Source: Candidatus Palauibacter poriticola
GTDB taxonomy: Bacteria; Gemmatimonadota; Gemmatimonadetes; Palauibacterales; Palauibacteraceae
Direction of reading: 5' to 3'
Assembly: GCA_012270965.1 (NCBI GenBank)
Contig: JAAXHJ010000066.1
Span: forward strand, 157,494-221,493
Length of the DNA stretch: 64,000 bases
Made by a program: the position numbers and the translations under genes. Under the pieces are notes generated by a model. That model did no database searches, was not told the origin of the DNA, and saw only the letters and a program-made list of their open reading frames with translations. Shown here in pieces: positions 22,938 through 28,031 of this stretch (positions within the stretch are counted from its first letter, which is position 1; every line of letters begins with the position of its first letter).

Positions 22938-23660
22938 TCAGGCGAGCGTCGTCTCCGTCTGGCCGTGGGGGCGGATGAGATCGGTTCGACCCTCGATGTC
23001 GAGGAGGGCGCGTTTGTACCGGAGTCCGCCCGTGTATCCGCCCAGCGTTCGGTCGGTTCGGACGACCCGGTGACACGGCACGACGATCGGTACCGGGTTC
23101 CGGCCGAGGGCGCTGCCCACCGCGCGCGATGCCTTCGGACGTCCGATGCGCCGGGCGATCTCCGCGTACGTCACGGTTTCGCCGAACTCGAGGCCGGATG
23201 CCGTGTCGAGTACGGCGCGCTGGAAGCCGCCCAGTCCCGTGAGGTCAACGAAGAGATCGAAGCGAGCGCGGCGGCGGCCGAAGTACTCCGTCAGTTGCTC
23301 TTCGGCGGGGCCGAGTCGGTCGGTATCGCGCACCACGGGTATCGCCGGGTACCGGCGCTCAAGGCCGGCGACGAACGCATCGTCGCTCTCGTCCTGCCAC
23401 GAGAGCGCGACCAAGCCGCCCGTGCTCGCCGCGACCCGCATGGCGCCGAAGGGCGAACCGAAGCGGCGCCAGCGGATCGCCGGACCGTTTCGGAGGCCCT
23501 CCGCGGAACGGTGCAGGATCCGGTATTCCACCGCCCATTCCCGGCAGTCCGGGCACGCCGCCAAGTGCTTCGCGAGCGTCGGCGCGGCGTCCGCATCCGA
23601 GTCGCCCAGAACCCAAGCGAGTACGTCGTCTTCGTGACAGGTCGTGCATCGTCGAGTCAT
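22938..23660 (-). CDS. Zinc-finger / O6-alkylguanine methyltransferase fusion
   Basis: 240 residues. Residues 1-50 form a small zinc-finger module with KHLAACPDC (H32, C36, C39) and upstream C5/C8/H9, the HxxxCxxC layout of anti-sigma factor (ZAS-type) domains. Residues 75-225 are an Ogt/MGMT suicide methyltransferase: TYAEIAR, RAVGSALGRNPVPI and the acceptor site PCHRV with Cys196. There is no membrane helix. The ATG at 23660 overlaps the stop of the upstream sigma factor gene (ATGA). I infer a soluble anti-sigma factor whose repair domain could report alkylation damage, analogous in logic to Ada. A simple repair enzyme with a decorative finger remains possible. Confidence 0.88.
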   Translation of the reverse strand: MTRRCTTCHEDDVLAWVLGDSDADAAPTLAKHLAACPDCREWAVEYRILHRSAEGLRNGPAIRWRRFGSPFGAMRVAASTGGLVALSWQDESDDAFVAGLERRYPAIPVVRDTDRLGPAEEQLTEYFGRRRARFDLFVDLTGLGGFQRAVLDTASGLEFGETVTYAEIARRIGRPKASRAVGSALGRNPVPIVVPCHRVVRTDRTLGGYTGGLRYKRALLDIEGRTDLIRPHGQTETTLA

Positions 23661-24199
23661 ATCGGCCCCTCCTCGCGCCACACCGCGGCGAGGTCGCGGC
23701 GCAGCTTCTTCATCCCTTGGTAGACATTGGCTCTCGCAGCCTCGGGAGAGGAACCCATCCGGCGGGCGATCGTCGCGTAGTCCAACTCTTCGATCCAGCG
23801 GAGCCAGACGGCGTTCCGCTGCCGGCGGGGGAGTTCCGCGACACCCTTCCGGACGCACGCCGCTGCGGCTTCGGAGAGCCGGCCCAGCACCGCGTCGGCC
23901 GGAAGAAGGGTGCCCGGCTCCATCTCGCCGGCGTGGGCGGCGAGCAACTCCGAGCGCCGGCGGCGCGTGGACAGGTGGTCGAGCGCCCGCCGAGTCGCGA
24001 CCCTGTACAGCCACGCGCGGATGTTCACGTTTTCTCCCGCCTCGGGCCGCACACGGAGCGCCGTCACCCACAGCTCCTGCACCACATCTCGGGCATCGTC
24101 CGCGCTATCCAGCATCGCGGCCACGTGACGCTGCAATTCAGGACCGTAACGCTCGGACCAGTCGCTCACCCGCCGTTCCGGCTCCGCGGCCGTGGTCAT
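23657..24199 (-). CDS. ECF-type RNA polymerase sigma factor
   Basis: 180 residues with sigma region 2 (about 15-80, including ARDVVQELWVTAL and RAWLYRVATRRALDHL) and region 4 (about 115-172, with LPRRQRNAVWLRWIEELDYATIARRMGSS). There is no region 3, as expected for group 4 (ECF) sigma factors. The ATG at 24199 is the first start after an unrelated low-complexity frame. The stop overlaps the ATG of the zinc-finger/methyltransferase gene, the usual arrangement for a sigma factor and its anti-sigma partner. Upstream lies a seven-copy 16-bp repeat array, which may be regulatory. Confidence 0.93.
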   Translation of the reverse strand: MTTAAEPERRVSDWSERYGPELQRHVAAMLDSADDARDVVQELWVTALRVRPEAGENVNIRAWLYRVATRRALDHLSTRRRRSELLAAHAGEMEPGTLLPADAVLGRLSEAAAACVRKGVAELPRRQRNAVWLRWIEELDYATIARRMGSSPEAARANVYQGMKKLRRDLAAVWREEGPI

Positions 24200-24295
24200 C
24201 GGCCTCGGCTCCACCTCTCCATCGCCTCCTCCTTCTGCCTTGCTCTCCCTCGTTGGAACGTATCGTTTCGGAATCCGTGAAACGGGCCACGCCGG

Positions 24296-24404
24296 ACTGG
24301 CCTCGCCGGAGACGGTCCTCGCCGGCGACAATCCTCGCCTGAGACTGGCCTCACCCGAAACTGACTTCGCCTGAAACTGGCCTTGCCCGAAACTGGCTTC
24401 GCGG
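24296..24404. repeat. Seven tandem imperfect 16-bp repeats
   Basis: Units of consensus ACTGGCCTCGCCCGAA start at 24296, 24312, 24328, 24344, 24360, 24376 and 24392 (the last partial). The period is exactly 16 bp with 1-5 mismatches per unit. The array lies in the 312-bp gap between the divergent sigma-factor and TolB-like genes, about 97 nt from the former start and 108 nt from the latter. It is not a coding repeat, since 16 is not a multiple of 3. Confidence 0.9.
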
Positions 24405-24511: not shown

Positions 24512-25639
24512 TTGAATTCAGCAACTCCAGGATCGGCGCAGACTCCCGTCGCGTTGGCGCTCGCGGCCACCTTCGCCGCGGCGGCCTGCACCCCCGACAC
24601 CGGAGAAGAGAACGGTGCCGCGGCCGGGGAGAACGAGGCGGAGAACGCCGCCGTGATCCGCGATCCGCTTCCTGAAGAGCGGCGCTTCGCCAGATTGGCT
24701 CAACTCACCTTCGAGGGGGAGAACGCCGAGGCCTACTACTCCTCGGACGGCCAGCGGCTGATCTTCCAGCGCCGCCACGAGGGCGAATACGAGTGCGACC
24801 AGATCTTCACCATCGGCGTCGAGGGCGGCGATCCGCAGCTCGTTTCGACGGGGCTCGGCCGGACCACCTGCTCCTACTTCTTCCCGGATGATTCGCGGAT
24901 CGTCTACAGTTCCACGCATCACGCGGCGCCCGAGTGCCCTCCCCCGCCCGACATGCGGCGCGGATACGTGTGGGCGCTCTACGACTTCGACATCTACACG
25001 GCGAACCCCGACGGTTCCGACGTCCAGCCGATCTTCTCGAGCCCCGGCTACGACGCCGAGGCGACCCTCGCTCCGGACGGGTCGCGGATCGTCTTCACCT
25101 CCACGCGCGACGGAGACTTGGACATCTACACGATGAACCCCGATGGCTCCGGCGTCCGGCAGCTCACGAACGAACCCGGGTACGATGGCGGGCCCTTCTT
25201 CTCCCCGGACGGATCGAAGATCGTCTACCGGGCGAGGTATCCCGAGAGTGAGGAGGAACTCGCGGACTATCAGGCGCTCTTGGCCGACGGTCTCGTGCGG
25301 CCCGGCGTACTCGACATCTACGTGATGGACGCGGACGGCTCGAACCAGGTGCGTCTCACGGACAACGGGGCCGCGAATTTCGCCCCCTTCTTCCACCCGA
25401 GCGGCGAGAAGGTGATCTTTTCCTCCAACCTGAACGACCCGAGCAGCCGCGACTTCGACCTCTTCCTCGTGAATCTGGACGGCACGGGGCTGGAGCAGGT
25501 GACGTTCAGCGACGAGTTCGAGAGCTTCCCCATGTTCAGCCCGGACGGGCGTCATCTCGTGTTCGGATCGAACCGCCACGGATCCCACGAGGGCAACACG
25601 AACATCTTCATCGCCGAGTGGATCGACGACCTGCCCTGA
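24512..25639 (+). CDS. TolB/PD40-repeat lipoprotein
   Basis: 375 residues. A lipoprotein signal (ALALAATFAAAAC, Cys about 26) is followed by an acidic linker and five or six WD40-like beta-propeller repeats with the PD40 signature (APDGSRIVFTSTRDGDLDIYTMNPDG, SPDGSKIVY, SPDGRHLVFGSNR). These proteins sit in the periplasm or on the surface and bind proteins or sugars. No enzyme function is claimed. The TTG at 24512 starts the signal peptide, with GAGG upstream. It is divergent from the sigma factor gene across the 16-bp repeat array. Confidence 0.85.
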   Translation: MNSATPGSAQTPVALALAATFAAAACTPDTGEENGAAAGENEAENAAVIRDPLPEERRFARLAQLTFEGENAEAYYSSDGQRLIFQRRHEGEYECDQIFTIGVEGGDPQLVSTGLGRTTCSYFFPDDSRIVYSSTHHAAPECPPPPDMRRGYVWALYDFDIYTANPDGSDVQPIFSSPGYDAEATLAPDGSRIVFTSTRDGDLDIYTMNPDGSGVRQLTNEPGYDGGPFFSPDGSKIVYRARYPESEEELADYQALLADGLVRPGVLDIYVMDADGSNQVRLTDNGAANFAPFFHPSGEKVIFSSNLNDPSSRDFDLFLVNLDGTGLEQVTFSDEFESFPMFSPDGRHLVFGSNRHGSHEGNTNIFIAEWIDDLP

Positions 25640-25784: not shown

Positions 25785-28031
25785 ATGCGGTTCGCAGCGG
25801 CGGGAGGAAACTCTGGAGCCCCCGGACGGTCGCGGGGACGGCGGCGGGTGTGGGTGGTCGGGGTGGCGTGGGGCGTCTCGTTCGCCGCGCCCCCGGTCTC
25901 CGCCCAGGAGACCGGAACCCCGATCGACTATGACGCCGCGGTCGCGCAGACGGGGATCGACGGCAGCTACGGCTATCTGCGCGCGCTGGACGGGTCCGCG
26001 ACGCTCATTCAGGGAGACACCCGGGAACGCATCCAGCTCGCGGTGAACGAGCCCGTCCTCGTCGGCGACCGGATCTTCGCGTCCGATGAGACCCGCATCG
26101 AAATCGCGCTCGCCGACGGAAACCTCGTCCGGATCGGGGACCAGGCCGAACTTCTCTTCCGGGCGCTCGCCAACTCCGCGGATACGAGCGATCCCGCCTC
26201 GAACCTCGAACTCGTGCGCGGGTCGCTGCAACTCGTCGTGGTTGCGAACCAAGCGGGCTCCGAGTGGCCCTCCGTCATCACGCCGAACGCGACGATCCGG
26301 GCGCGGGGAGCCGGTTCATTCCTGATCGTCGTCGACGACGAGCGCCGCAGCGAGGTCGTCGTGCGCGAGGGGGTGGCGGAAGTCACGACGCGGACGGAAC
26401 TCGCCGAGGTCCGCCGCGGTGAAAGCCTCCTCGTCGAGGGGGCGCAGGGTGACCGGCTCCGCTTCGCGGCGGCCCCGAGTCTCGATCGGCTGGAGGCGTG
26501 GGGCCAGGGGCTCGGCGATTACGCGCGCGGCGAGTACACGGCTCACGTGGATCCGGACCTCCACTATGCCGCGTCGTCGCTCGGGGGACACGGATCCTGG
26601 GTGCATGTGGACGCGGGGGTCGCTTGGCGCCCGCGGGCGTCCACGGGTTGGGCGCCCTACCGGCACGGGCGGTGGCGACACACGCCCAGCGGGATGCTCT
26701 GGGTCTCGTACGAACCATGGGGCTGGGTGCCCTACCACTACGGGTACTGGGACCTCAACCCCGACTGGGGCTGGATCTGGTTCCCGGGCCGGCGTTTCGC
26801 CGTCGCGCACGTGTACTGGTACTGGGGTCCGAACTACGCGGGTTGGATTCCATCGGGATACTACTGGCGTCACTACAGGAACTACTACGGGAGCCGCTGG
26901 GGCTTCCACTTCGGGGTCTACGGACACATCGGGGGTGGCTTTGAGCGCTATCGGCACTGGACGTTTCTGCCGCACGGGCGTCTGGGACACCGGCGGCAGC
27001 ACTTCTACTCGGTGGGCGGAGCGGACTTCGGCCGCGGGCGGAAGGCGGTCGAGCGCGGCGTGCTGCTGACGGACTCCCGCCTGCTCGGGCGCGAGGCGCG
27101 GCGGCGACCCGCGCAGACGTTGGCGAGCCTGCGGCGCGCGGTGTCGCGCGACGGGAGAACGGCGGTCGATGCGAACGGCTTCATCGACCGTGGCGCGAGC
27201 CTGCCGAGAGAGGTCGAACGCGTCGTGCTGCGAGAGCGCGATGGCCGGTCGGCCCGCCCGCGCGACGCGGCCGCCGGGGTGCCGAGCGGCACCTCGCGGA
27301 CGGCGGGCACACCGCCCGTCCGCGTGACCAGACGGTCGGCGGAGGGCAGCACGTTGCGCCTGGAGCGCCCCGGCGTCCAGCGGGCCACGCGGCCCGGTGT
27401 GCAACGGACGACGCAAGGGGCCGGCGTGCAGCGGGCGACGCGGCCCGCGTCCGGGACGGCTCGCCCGGCGATCCGGCGACCCGCGGCGCGGGAGTTGACC
27501 GACGGCGCGAGACGTCCCGCCGTGCGACCCACGACGCGGACGGGTTCCGGCGGCGTGCAGCGCGCGTCTCCCCGGGGGAGCGACGACGGCGGTCGGCGGG
27601 TCCTCCGTCCGCAGACACCCCAAGAGTGGCCGGCCGTTCGGCGGACGGGTGGCACGACGGCGCGGCCGACGGCGAGGTCGAGTCCGTGGAGACCGACGCT
27701 GCGGCCCACAACAGCGCGGCCGACAGCGCGACCCACGACAGTGCGACCCACGACGGCGCGACCCACGACGGCGCGACCCACGGCGCGACCCACGACGGGG
27801 TGGCCGTCTCGGCCGGTCGTTCGCCGCCCGCCGTCCACGACGCGGCCCGCGGCCCGGCCATCCGTCCCGCGGTCGCCGCGGCCGGCGGTGCGCCCGCCCG
27901 GCCCGTCAAGGTCGAGCGGCGTCGTCAGACGTTCCGGCGGCGGGTCCAGACCCGCGGGCGCGGTCCGCCGCGCCGGCGGCAGCACGCGGTCGACAGCCAC
28001 CACCCGCGCACGGGGCCGATCCGGAGGCTAG
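25785..28031 (+). CDS. FecR-domain protein with Arg/Pro/Thr repeat tail
   Basis: 748 residues with an N-terminal signal segment (VWVVGVAWGVSFAAPPVSAQ). A FecR-type domain (about 60-215) is followed by a Trp/Tyr/Gly-rich module (about 250-420, with GWAPYRHGRW, WVPYHYGYW and GWIWFPG) common in FecR proteins of this type. The last third is a highly basic low-complexity tail with repeats such as GVQRATRP and RPTTARPTT. A tail of this kind could bind DNA, RNA or polyanionic surface polymers, but no role can be assigned. It should be exported. A short tandem duplication (GACGACCTGCCCT) lies upstream at 25625-25650. Confidence 0.85.
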   Translation: MRFAAAGGNSGAPGRSRGRRRVWVVGVAWGVSFAAPPVSAQETGTPIDYDAAVAQTGIDGSYGYLRALDGSATLIQGDTRERIQLAVNEPVLVGDRIFASDETRIEIALADGNLVRIGDQAELLFRALANSADTSDPASNLELVRGSLQLVVVANQAGSEWPSVITPNATIRARGAGSFLIVVDDERRSEVVVREGVAEVTTRTELAEVRRGESLLVEGAQGDRLRFAAAPSLDRLEAWGQGLGDYARGEYTAHVDPDLHYAASSLGGHGSWVHVDAGVAWRPRASTGWAPYRHGRWRHTPSGMLWVSYEPWGWVPYHYGYWDLNPDWGWIWFPGRRFAVAHVYWYWGPNYAGWIPSGYYWRHYRNYYGSRWGFHFGVYGHIGGGFERYRHWTFLPHGRLGHRRQHFYSVGGADFGRGRKAVERGVLLTDSRLLGREARRRPAQTLASLRRAVSRDGRTAVDANGFIDRGASLPREVERVVLRERDGRSARPRDAAAGVPSGTSRTAGTPPVRVTRRSAEGSTLRLERPGVQRATRPGVQRTTQGAGVQRATRPASGTARPAIRRPAARELTDGARRPAVRPTTRTGSGGVQRASPRGSDDGGRRVLRPQTPQEWPAVRRTGGTTARPTARSSPWRPTLRPTTARPTARPTTVRPTTARPTTARPTARPTTGWPSRPVVRRPPSTTRPAARPSVPRSPRPAVRPPGPSRSSGVVRRSGGGSRPAGAVRRAGGSTRSTATTRARGRSGG

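Follow-up and report, generated by a model that had tools for sequence, protein, structure and literature searches.

The 64,000-nucleotide stretch of DNA analyzed here (positions 157,494 to 221,493 of contig JAAXHJ010000066.1 of Candidatus Palauibacter poriticola, hereafter the window) carries, on its minus strand, a gene for a sigma factor of the extracytoplasmic function (ECF) type, followed by a gene encoding a fusion of an N-terminal domain that resembles class I anti-sigma factors to a complete O6-alkylguanine alkyltransferase (Ogt) domain pair. It is proposed, with a probability of roughly 0.55, that this operon represents a self-contained alkylation response in which the fusion acts as an anti-sigma factor until its own suicide repair reaction inactivates it. 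Genomes and loci are designated by our own G and L numbers, G000 being the genome of the window and L001 the window locus.

An initial annotation of this locus had described an ECF-type sigma gene whose stop overlaps by 4 nt the start of a protein composed of an HxxxCxxC finger and a complete Ogt domain, and had suggested a survey of the co-occurrence of the two genes. This description is confirmed, i.e., the overlap has the form ATGA, and both H32-x3-C36-x2-C39 and PC196HRV are present, while the survey revealed strict co-conservation. A full-length fusion (with a match starting at residue 1-9) is found in 23 of 60 relatives' genomes, and a sigma match at E<=1e-25 in the same 23 and in none of the other 37. 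In all 23 carriers, among which L010 and L011 are near-copies, the sigma gene lies directly upstream of the fusion gene, whose ATG overlaps the sigma stop by 4 nt. In addition, the finger region reads as coding, with a median ratio of nonsynonymous to synonymous substitution rates (dN/dS) of 0.44 as opposed to 1.1 and 1.6 in two wrong frames (12 of 14 same-genus loci, to which all dN/dS values refer). Together, the invariable overlap and this coding signal indicate that the arrangement of the locus is due to more than chance.

Within the genus, fourteen of seventeen genomes carry the fusion, and of the three others two possess a plain Ogt (G013 and G014) and one is without an Ogt match. No sigma match was detected in the 15 kb around the plain Ogt genes of G013 and G014, nor alongside any of seven plain Ogt loci (L024-L030, two of them from the same genus). 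Searched with a profile of the fusion, 295 genomes of the class yielded the same 23 full-length proteins, and, among the class loci whose upstream gene was read, L058-L060 have a sigma gene directly before an Ogt with a short extension only. The fusion is the sole Ogt match in G000; five other fusion-bearing genomes (G001, G002, G010, G011 and G012) contain a second, weak Ogt-like match (E ~1e-14 to 1e-17) in a frame of 290-296 aa.

The first gene encodes an ECF sigma factor by sequence, being short, with regions 2 and 4 and no large extra domain. Its product matches Sigma70_r2 (46.2 bits, cut-off 24) and Sigma70_r4_2 (44.8 bits, cut-off 25.7) of Pfam and the NCBIfam model TIGR02937 for ECF sigma factors (60.2 bits, cut-off 42.9), and all twelve matches returned by a PDB profile search at E<=1e-8 are sigma factors, the majority of which are named ECF. 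The predicted alkyltransferase nature of the second gene product rests on a complete Ogt fold and a PCHR acceptor site. Both Ogt domains exceed their Pfam cut-offs (DNA_binding_1, PF01035, 105.8 bits against 27, 1e-30; Methyltransf_1N, PF02870, 24.1 bits against 21, 5.4e-5), as does the protein that of TIGR00589 (104.4 bits against 46.4, NCBIfam), and a Foldseek search with the model of the whole fusion returned Ogt structures, the best being that of Mycobacterium tuberculosis OGT (2.7e-14). Tyr165, Arg179, Asn188, Cys196, His197 and Glu223, which we take to be the counterparts of the catalytic residues in human MGMT, do not vary in an alignment of 22 sequences, which omits L011 as a near-copy of L010, or in a multi-phylum alignment of 24, and none of the 23 Gemmatimonadota fusions has lost Cys196. 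Within the protein, the lowest median dN/dS, and hence the strongest constraint, is that of the C-terminal Ogt domain (0.09), followed by the N-terminal Ogt domain (0.23), the corresponding value for the sigma gene being 0.31.

The approximately 60 residues that precede the Ogt fold resemble, in sequence profile and in predicted structure, the three-helix domain of class I anti-sigma factors. When a profile of 22 Gemmatimonadota N-terminal domains was searched against the PDB (177,635 sequences), the first four matches were anti-sigma factors, i.e., RslA (3hug, 3.7e-4), ChrR (2q1z, 0.015, and 2z2s, 0.017) and DdvA (8rlz, 0.064), followed by a CHAT-domain protein (1.0) and RsiW (1.2); a ten-sequence profile drawn from five Gemmatimonadota and five members of other phyla placed RslA (7.8e-5), RsiW (4.1e-4) and DdvA (1.3e-3) at the top. 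The AlphaFold2 model of the full fusion (mean local confidence score, pLDDT, 90.5) places helices at residues 10-17, 26-35 and 37-58 ahead of the Ogt fold, and the domain modelled alone reached a pLDDT of 84.7. Of twenty chains listed by Foldseek for this domain model, sixteen come from six anti-sigma entries (RslA, ChrR twice, RsiW, a SigK complex and DdvA), with TM-scores by query length of 0.49-0.75. The Pfam family zf-HC2 scores 15.2 bits in the window fusion, below its cut-off of 22.2, and is seen at E<=0.1 in 11 of 22 fusion members. The earlier suggestion that the fusion is an anti-sigma factor is thereby partly upheld, as regards the resemblance, by both profile and fold, and the position of its gene next to that of the sigma factor.

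Sigma-Ogt pairs also occur in other phyla. A GTDB scan with the fusion profile returned an ECF sigma gene directly upstream in at least 28 among the 80 loci listed, these 28 comprising 4 from Gemmatimonadota, 10 from Chloroflexota with Thermomicrobia, 9 from Actinomycetota and 5 from Rokubacteria. Searches by phylum found the sigma gene directly upstream in 25 of 30 loci taken from among the best Ogt matches of Actinomycetota (149 genomes), none of the 25 with HxxxCxxC, and in 16 of 30 such loci of Chloroflexota (151 genomes), one of which has this pattern. The collected set of other Ogt partners consists of 72 rows, including duplicates (L221 is from the genome of L098, and L251 from that of L078) and four loci of the Gemmatimonadota fusion group (L064-L067). 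PCHR is present in 71 of these rows, the remaining one being unreadable at that place. A start offset of -4 was recorded in 23 of 31, 18 of 25 and 14 of 16 pairs; because start codons were chosen by their closeness to an overlap of 4 nt, the overlap counts outside the 23 are biased towards that value.

The zf-HC2 family exceeds its cut-off in L078 (Chloroflexota) and L114 (Rokubacteria), both of them fusions beside a sigma gene, and is weaker in L069, L070 and L131. All five Rokubacteria partners (L094, L114, L127, L131 and L137) possess an Ada-type Cys4 pattern C-terminal to Ogt; of the four that were scanned, i.e., all except L127, the Ada metal domain passes its Pfam cut-off in L094 and L137, narrowly misses it in L114 (22.3 against 23) and scores 18.4 in L131.

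In a phylogenetic tree of the sigma factors, those of the Gemmatimonadota fusions form a single clade (support 100/99), and Ogt-paired sigma factors of Gemmatimonadota, Chloroflexota, Actinomycetota and two Rokubacteria are separated as a group from 11 of 12 G000 paralogues (support 93/79, subject to long-branch warnings). The L094 and L137 sigma factors fall outside this main Ogt-paired group, and for this reason the pairing in Rokubacteria has perhaps arisen a second time. The underlying alignment is without L020 and L022, whose sigma genes are cut by contig ends, and the tree also without L011; of 27 sigma factors from the other pairs, two whose matches were short were dropped, and G000 contributed 12 of its 14 other region-4 matches.

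Alignment of the upstream DNA within the genus revealed an ECF-like promoter, TTTCACG-N13-TACGTT. Of the 14 genomes with the fusion, 13 contain a single copy of the exact pattern, the fourteenth (G015) having TCTCACG at the promoter position, and the 3 genomes without the fusion contain none; the reversed pattern, used as a control, is absent from all 17. In the next genus, TTTCAC and CGTTA are found 16-17 nt apart in L015, L017 and L021, upstream of a small open reading frame (ORF) that precedes the sigma gene; L016 is without this form and L022 is cut by a contig end. Removal of L221, L251 and L064-L067 from the 72 rows left 66 sigma-Ogt loci, all outside the 23, among which CTCAC (36 of 66) and TCACG (31 of 66) lead the 5-mers located 15-17 nt before CGT upstream of sigma, the maximum after shuffling being 14. 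A promoter core, [CT]TCAC[GA]-N13..17-CGT, precedes 45 of the 66 operons, with a spacing of 16 in 39 of the 45 (Actinomycetota 27/33, Chloroflexota 17/25, Rokubacteria 1/5, Gemmatimonadota f10 0/3), whereas shuffled sequences gave a mean of 1.3 (maximum 6), the interior of the sigma gene 3 of 66 and the opposite strand 2 of 66; these counts are not independent, since the form of the motif was picked after seeing the data of the 66 loci and the loci are related. The pattern is that expected of a sigma factor reading its own operon, which this one therefore probably does.

The window fusion offers five candidate metal ligands, i.e., C5, C8, H32, C36 and C39. Ten fusions (L014-L023) have an N-terminal Cys together with H32/C36/C39, seven close relatives of the window protein (L002-L008) have C5/C8/C36/C39 with Arg in place of H32, and the window protein holds both kinds; by comparison of these sequences, the ligands in its own subgroup may be C5/C8/C36/C39. 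Strict HxxxCxxC is present in 11 of the 23 Gemmatimonadota fusions. Five further fusions, all from the window's genus (L009-L013), are devoid of the N-terminal Cys and of C39, and in four of the five C36 is also gone; they retain the sigma gene, the 4-nt overlap and Cys196. The joint loss suggests that the ligands form one site, and the survival of the pair without that site suggests that the role of the metal is structural. Published anti-sigma groups contain zinc and non-zinc members side by side (PMC7406223). Alkylation of the metal site, which the initial annotation had offered as one possible release trigger, is consequently disfavoured as a general trigger, and sensing through Cys196, intact in every fusion, is more likely.

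These data also bear on the strongest rival explanation, according to which the fusion is an ordinary anti-sigma factor with an unrelated trigger, its three-helix domain sensing zinc, redox state or another signal and its Ogt domain being cargo switched on by the sigma factor. Zinc-bearing cytoplasmic anti-sigma domains are said often to sense redox (PMC7406223), and 18 of the 23 fusions keep four candidate ligands. Nevertheless, the site is broken in the other five while the sigma gene, the overlap and Cys196 stay, the coupling of sigma to Ogt persists without a finger in the Actinomycetota and Chloroflexota loci described above, so that Ogt is the constant part, and the Rokubacteria partners add an Ada-type Cys4 pattern; we thus regard an unrelated trigger as unlikely. 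Across phyla, Ogt with its acceptor Cys is the constant element and the finger domain the variable one, so that Cys196 is the most likely entry point of the signal. Lineages that have no finger would then need either the short extension or Ogt itself to hold the sigma factor.

The alkylation response that we favour would operate as follows. The ECF sigma factor would have as its cognate anti-sigma factor the soluble fusion encoded next to it, whose N-terminal three-helix domain would keep the sigma factor off RNA polymerase and whose Ogt domain would be sensor and repair enzyme at once. Each fusion molecule could accept only one alkyl group, transferred irreversibly to Cys196 from O6-alkylguanine in DNA. 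Once alkylated, Ogt proteins undergo a conformational change and degradation; either fate could cause the anti-sigma domain to release the sigma factor, which, once freed, would transcribe its own operon from the TTTCACG/CGTT promoter. Fresh, unalkylated fusion would then repair further lesions and recapture the sigma factor when the lesions are gone. Binding of the fusion to the sigma factor, repression, release by alkylation and autoregulation in vivo are the steps that we infer. In the more general form of this proposal, which we judge to be about evenly poised, each repair event destroys one anti-sigma factor and frees one sigma factor, resulting in a lesion-counting, Ada-free response in Actinomycetota, Chloroflexota, Gemmatimonadota and Rokubacteria, with Ogt, with or without the three-helix domain, as the missing regulator of ECF122-like sigma factors.

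The obvious counterpart is Ada, in which a suicide DNA-repair reaction is turned into gene activation by means of an AraC-type activator. As in Escherichia coli Ada, a suicide alkyl-acceptor repair protein would govern transcription of its own gene, yet a Pfam scan of the window fusion at E<=0.1 returned neither an Ada_Zn nor an AraC-type domain, and the target of control would here be a sigma factor, relieved of its inhibitor. The 17 genomes of the genus yielded no Ada_Zn domain match, the control search being positive in 6 of 14 known genomes, including those of E. coli and Bacillus subtilis. In the Rokubacteria relatives, the Ada-type Cys4 pattern stands C-terminal to Ogt. A positive, Ada-like mode, in which the alkylated fusion is a co-activator aiding the sigma factor at the promoter and the unmodified form is inert, would agree with the partners that accompany a sigma factor without possessing a finger, and methylated Ada contacts region 4 of sigma-70 in E. 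coli; it is nonetheless rendered improbable by the likeness of the N-terminal domain to anti-sigma factors, i.e., to inhibitors, and by the missing AraC-type domain. Plain co-transcription, with the sigma factor controlled otherwise and the Ogt protein a target that makes no contact with it, would be compatible with the shared promoter, which shows no more than a probable reading of the operon by this sigma factor, but is very improbable given the fused anti-sigma-like domain, the unvarying 4-nt overlap and the identical occurrence of the two genes across 60 genomes.

A number of observations weigh against the proposed anti-sigma mechanism or its generality. With regard to the N-terminal domain, the top match of the 22-domain profile alone falls below 0.001, the Foldseek E-values are weak for a 64-residue domain (best 0.68), and this domain is the fastest-evolving part of the protein, at the dN/dS of 0.44 given above. 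HxxxCxxC is present in only 7 of the 72 other-partner rows, most of which carry a short helix-like extension instead; since most partners from other phyla are thus without the finger domain, sigma-Ogt pairs do not universally include an anti-sigma domain. The promoter core is absent upstream of 21 of the 66 operons, among them all 3 from Gemmatimonadota f10 and 4 of 5 from Rokubacteria. A general replacement of Ada is disfavoured by Ada_Zn matches in 5 of 10 pair-bearing genomes of other phyla; the L070 genome has two strong matches, while in the L114 and L131 genomes one of two matches is the Ogt partner itself. Furthermore, genus-wide searches with the promoter pattern did not reveal a wider regulon. 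A larger regulon within the genus was discarded, as the exact pattern was found at the sigma operon only. Relaxing the pattern added twelve sites, spread over 7 of the 17 genomes but not G000; eight of them are overlain by open frames longer than 300 codons, and no two of the twelve loci are alike by blastn at E<=1e-5; allowing up to two mismatches, G000 contains 42 sites as against 15 for the reversed pattern.

Association of sigma and Ogt genes as such is already in print, in the form of the ECF122 group, likewise ECF sigma factors with a conserved Ogt neighbour. The same layout was found here in Actinomycetota, to which Cellulomonas belongs. Review statements on ECF122 describe neighbouring 6-O-methylguanine DNA methyltransferase genes, with the mechanism given as unknown (PMC8999054, citing Casas-Pastor et al. 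2021), and a model member from Cellulomonas (PMC8999054); in the open-access literature searched, this review was the only paper to surface for ECF122. The Ogt of the window differs from the neighbours described there in bearing an anti-sigma-like domain. The class I zinc anti-sigma factors RslA, ChrR and RsiW similarly have three helices, ligands between helices 2 and 3 and an adjacent sigma gene, and RsrA is a further class I zinc anti-sigma factor of the same sort; in the window, however, the fused domain is a suicide DNA-repair enzyme. C-terminal sensor domains are often fused to class I anti-sigma factors (PMC7406223). Among the best matches listed from titles and abstract openings of the open-access literature, no description of an anti-sigma/Ogt fusion was found, and, as far as that literature shows, the present analysis adds to the known gene association an anti-sigma-like domain fused to Ogt, a promoter shared among the operons and Ada-type Cys4 variants.

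If the proposed mechanism holds, repairing alkylated DNA would itself turn on the repair gene in a genus in which Ada was not found (0 of 17 genomes), and other bacteria would have reached the logic of Ada by making the suicide enzyme the inhibitor of a sigma factor. The mechanism of the ECF122 sigma factors would also receive a testable answer, and two proteins and one promoter would make up a compact damage-counting switch. The features of the locus are listed in Table 1.

Table 1. Features of the sigma-Ogt locus, in window coordinates.
Feature	Coordinates	Strand	Description and basis
ECF sigma gene	23657..24199	minus	ATG at 24199, TGA stop ending 23657; 180 aa; regions 2 and 4; Pfam/NCBIfam
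Anti-sigma-like/Ogt fusion gene	22938..23660	minus	ATG at 23660, stop ending 22938; 240 aa
ATGA overlap of sigma stop and fusion start, 4 nt	23657..23660	minus	Such an ATG in 23/23 orthologous pairs
N-terminal class I anti-sigma-like domain, residues 1-58	23487..23660	minus	PDB profile search, AlphaFold2, Foldseek, ligand table
Ogt N-terminal ribonuclease-like domain, residues 63-139	23244..23474	minus	PF02870, 24.1 bits
Ogt DNA-binding and alkyl-acceptor domain, residues 146-224	22989..23225	minus	PF01035, 1e-30; Foldseek
Codon of predicted alkyl-acceptor Cys196 (PCHRV)	23073..23075	minus	Cys196 in 23/23 Gemmatimonadota fusions
ECF-like promoter TTTCACG-N13-TACGTT	24257..24282	minus	Phylogenetic footprint; presumed autoregulatory; -35 TTTCAC, 16 nt, -10 CGTT

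In related genera, a small ORF of 39-46 codons, resembling a hydrophobic (membrane) peptide, is located just upstream of the sigma gene in L015, L016, L017, L019, L021 and L023, where it is possibly a third operon member; no hydrophobic ORF of this kind precedes the sigma gene in L001 or L018. A shared third gene downstream of the pair was also considered and rejected: 14 loci were listed and one downstream ORF was scanned in each of 10, of which only 4 gave Pfam matches. Two of these four, from related Chloroflexota, are a second sigma-like gene of the DUF6596 type (L079:7071-8537 and L082:2951-4684). Neither the sigma factor nor the fusion matched an anti-phage defence system in PADLOC. Upstream of the sigma promoter, at 24295-24402, lies an imperfect 16-bp tandem array of 6.8 copies, which was not seen in the aligned upstream regions of genus relatives. 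The neighbouring plus-strand genes, for which no link to the sigma-Ogt pair was seen, encode a PD40 beta-propeller protein (24512-25639) and a FecR and DUF6600 protein with a long low-complexity tail (25785-28031).
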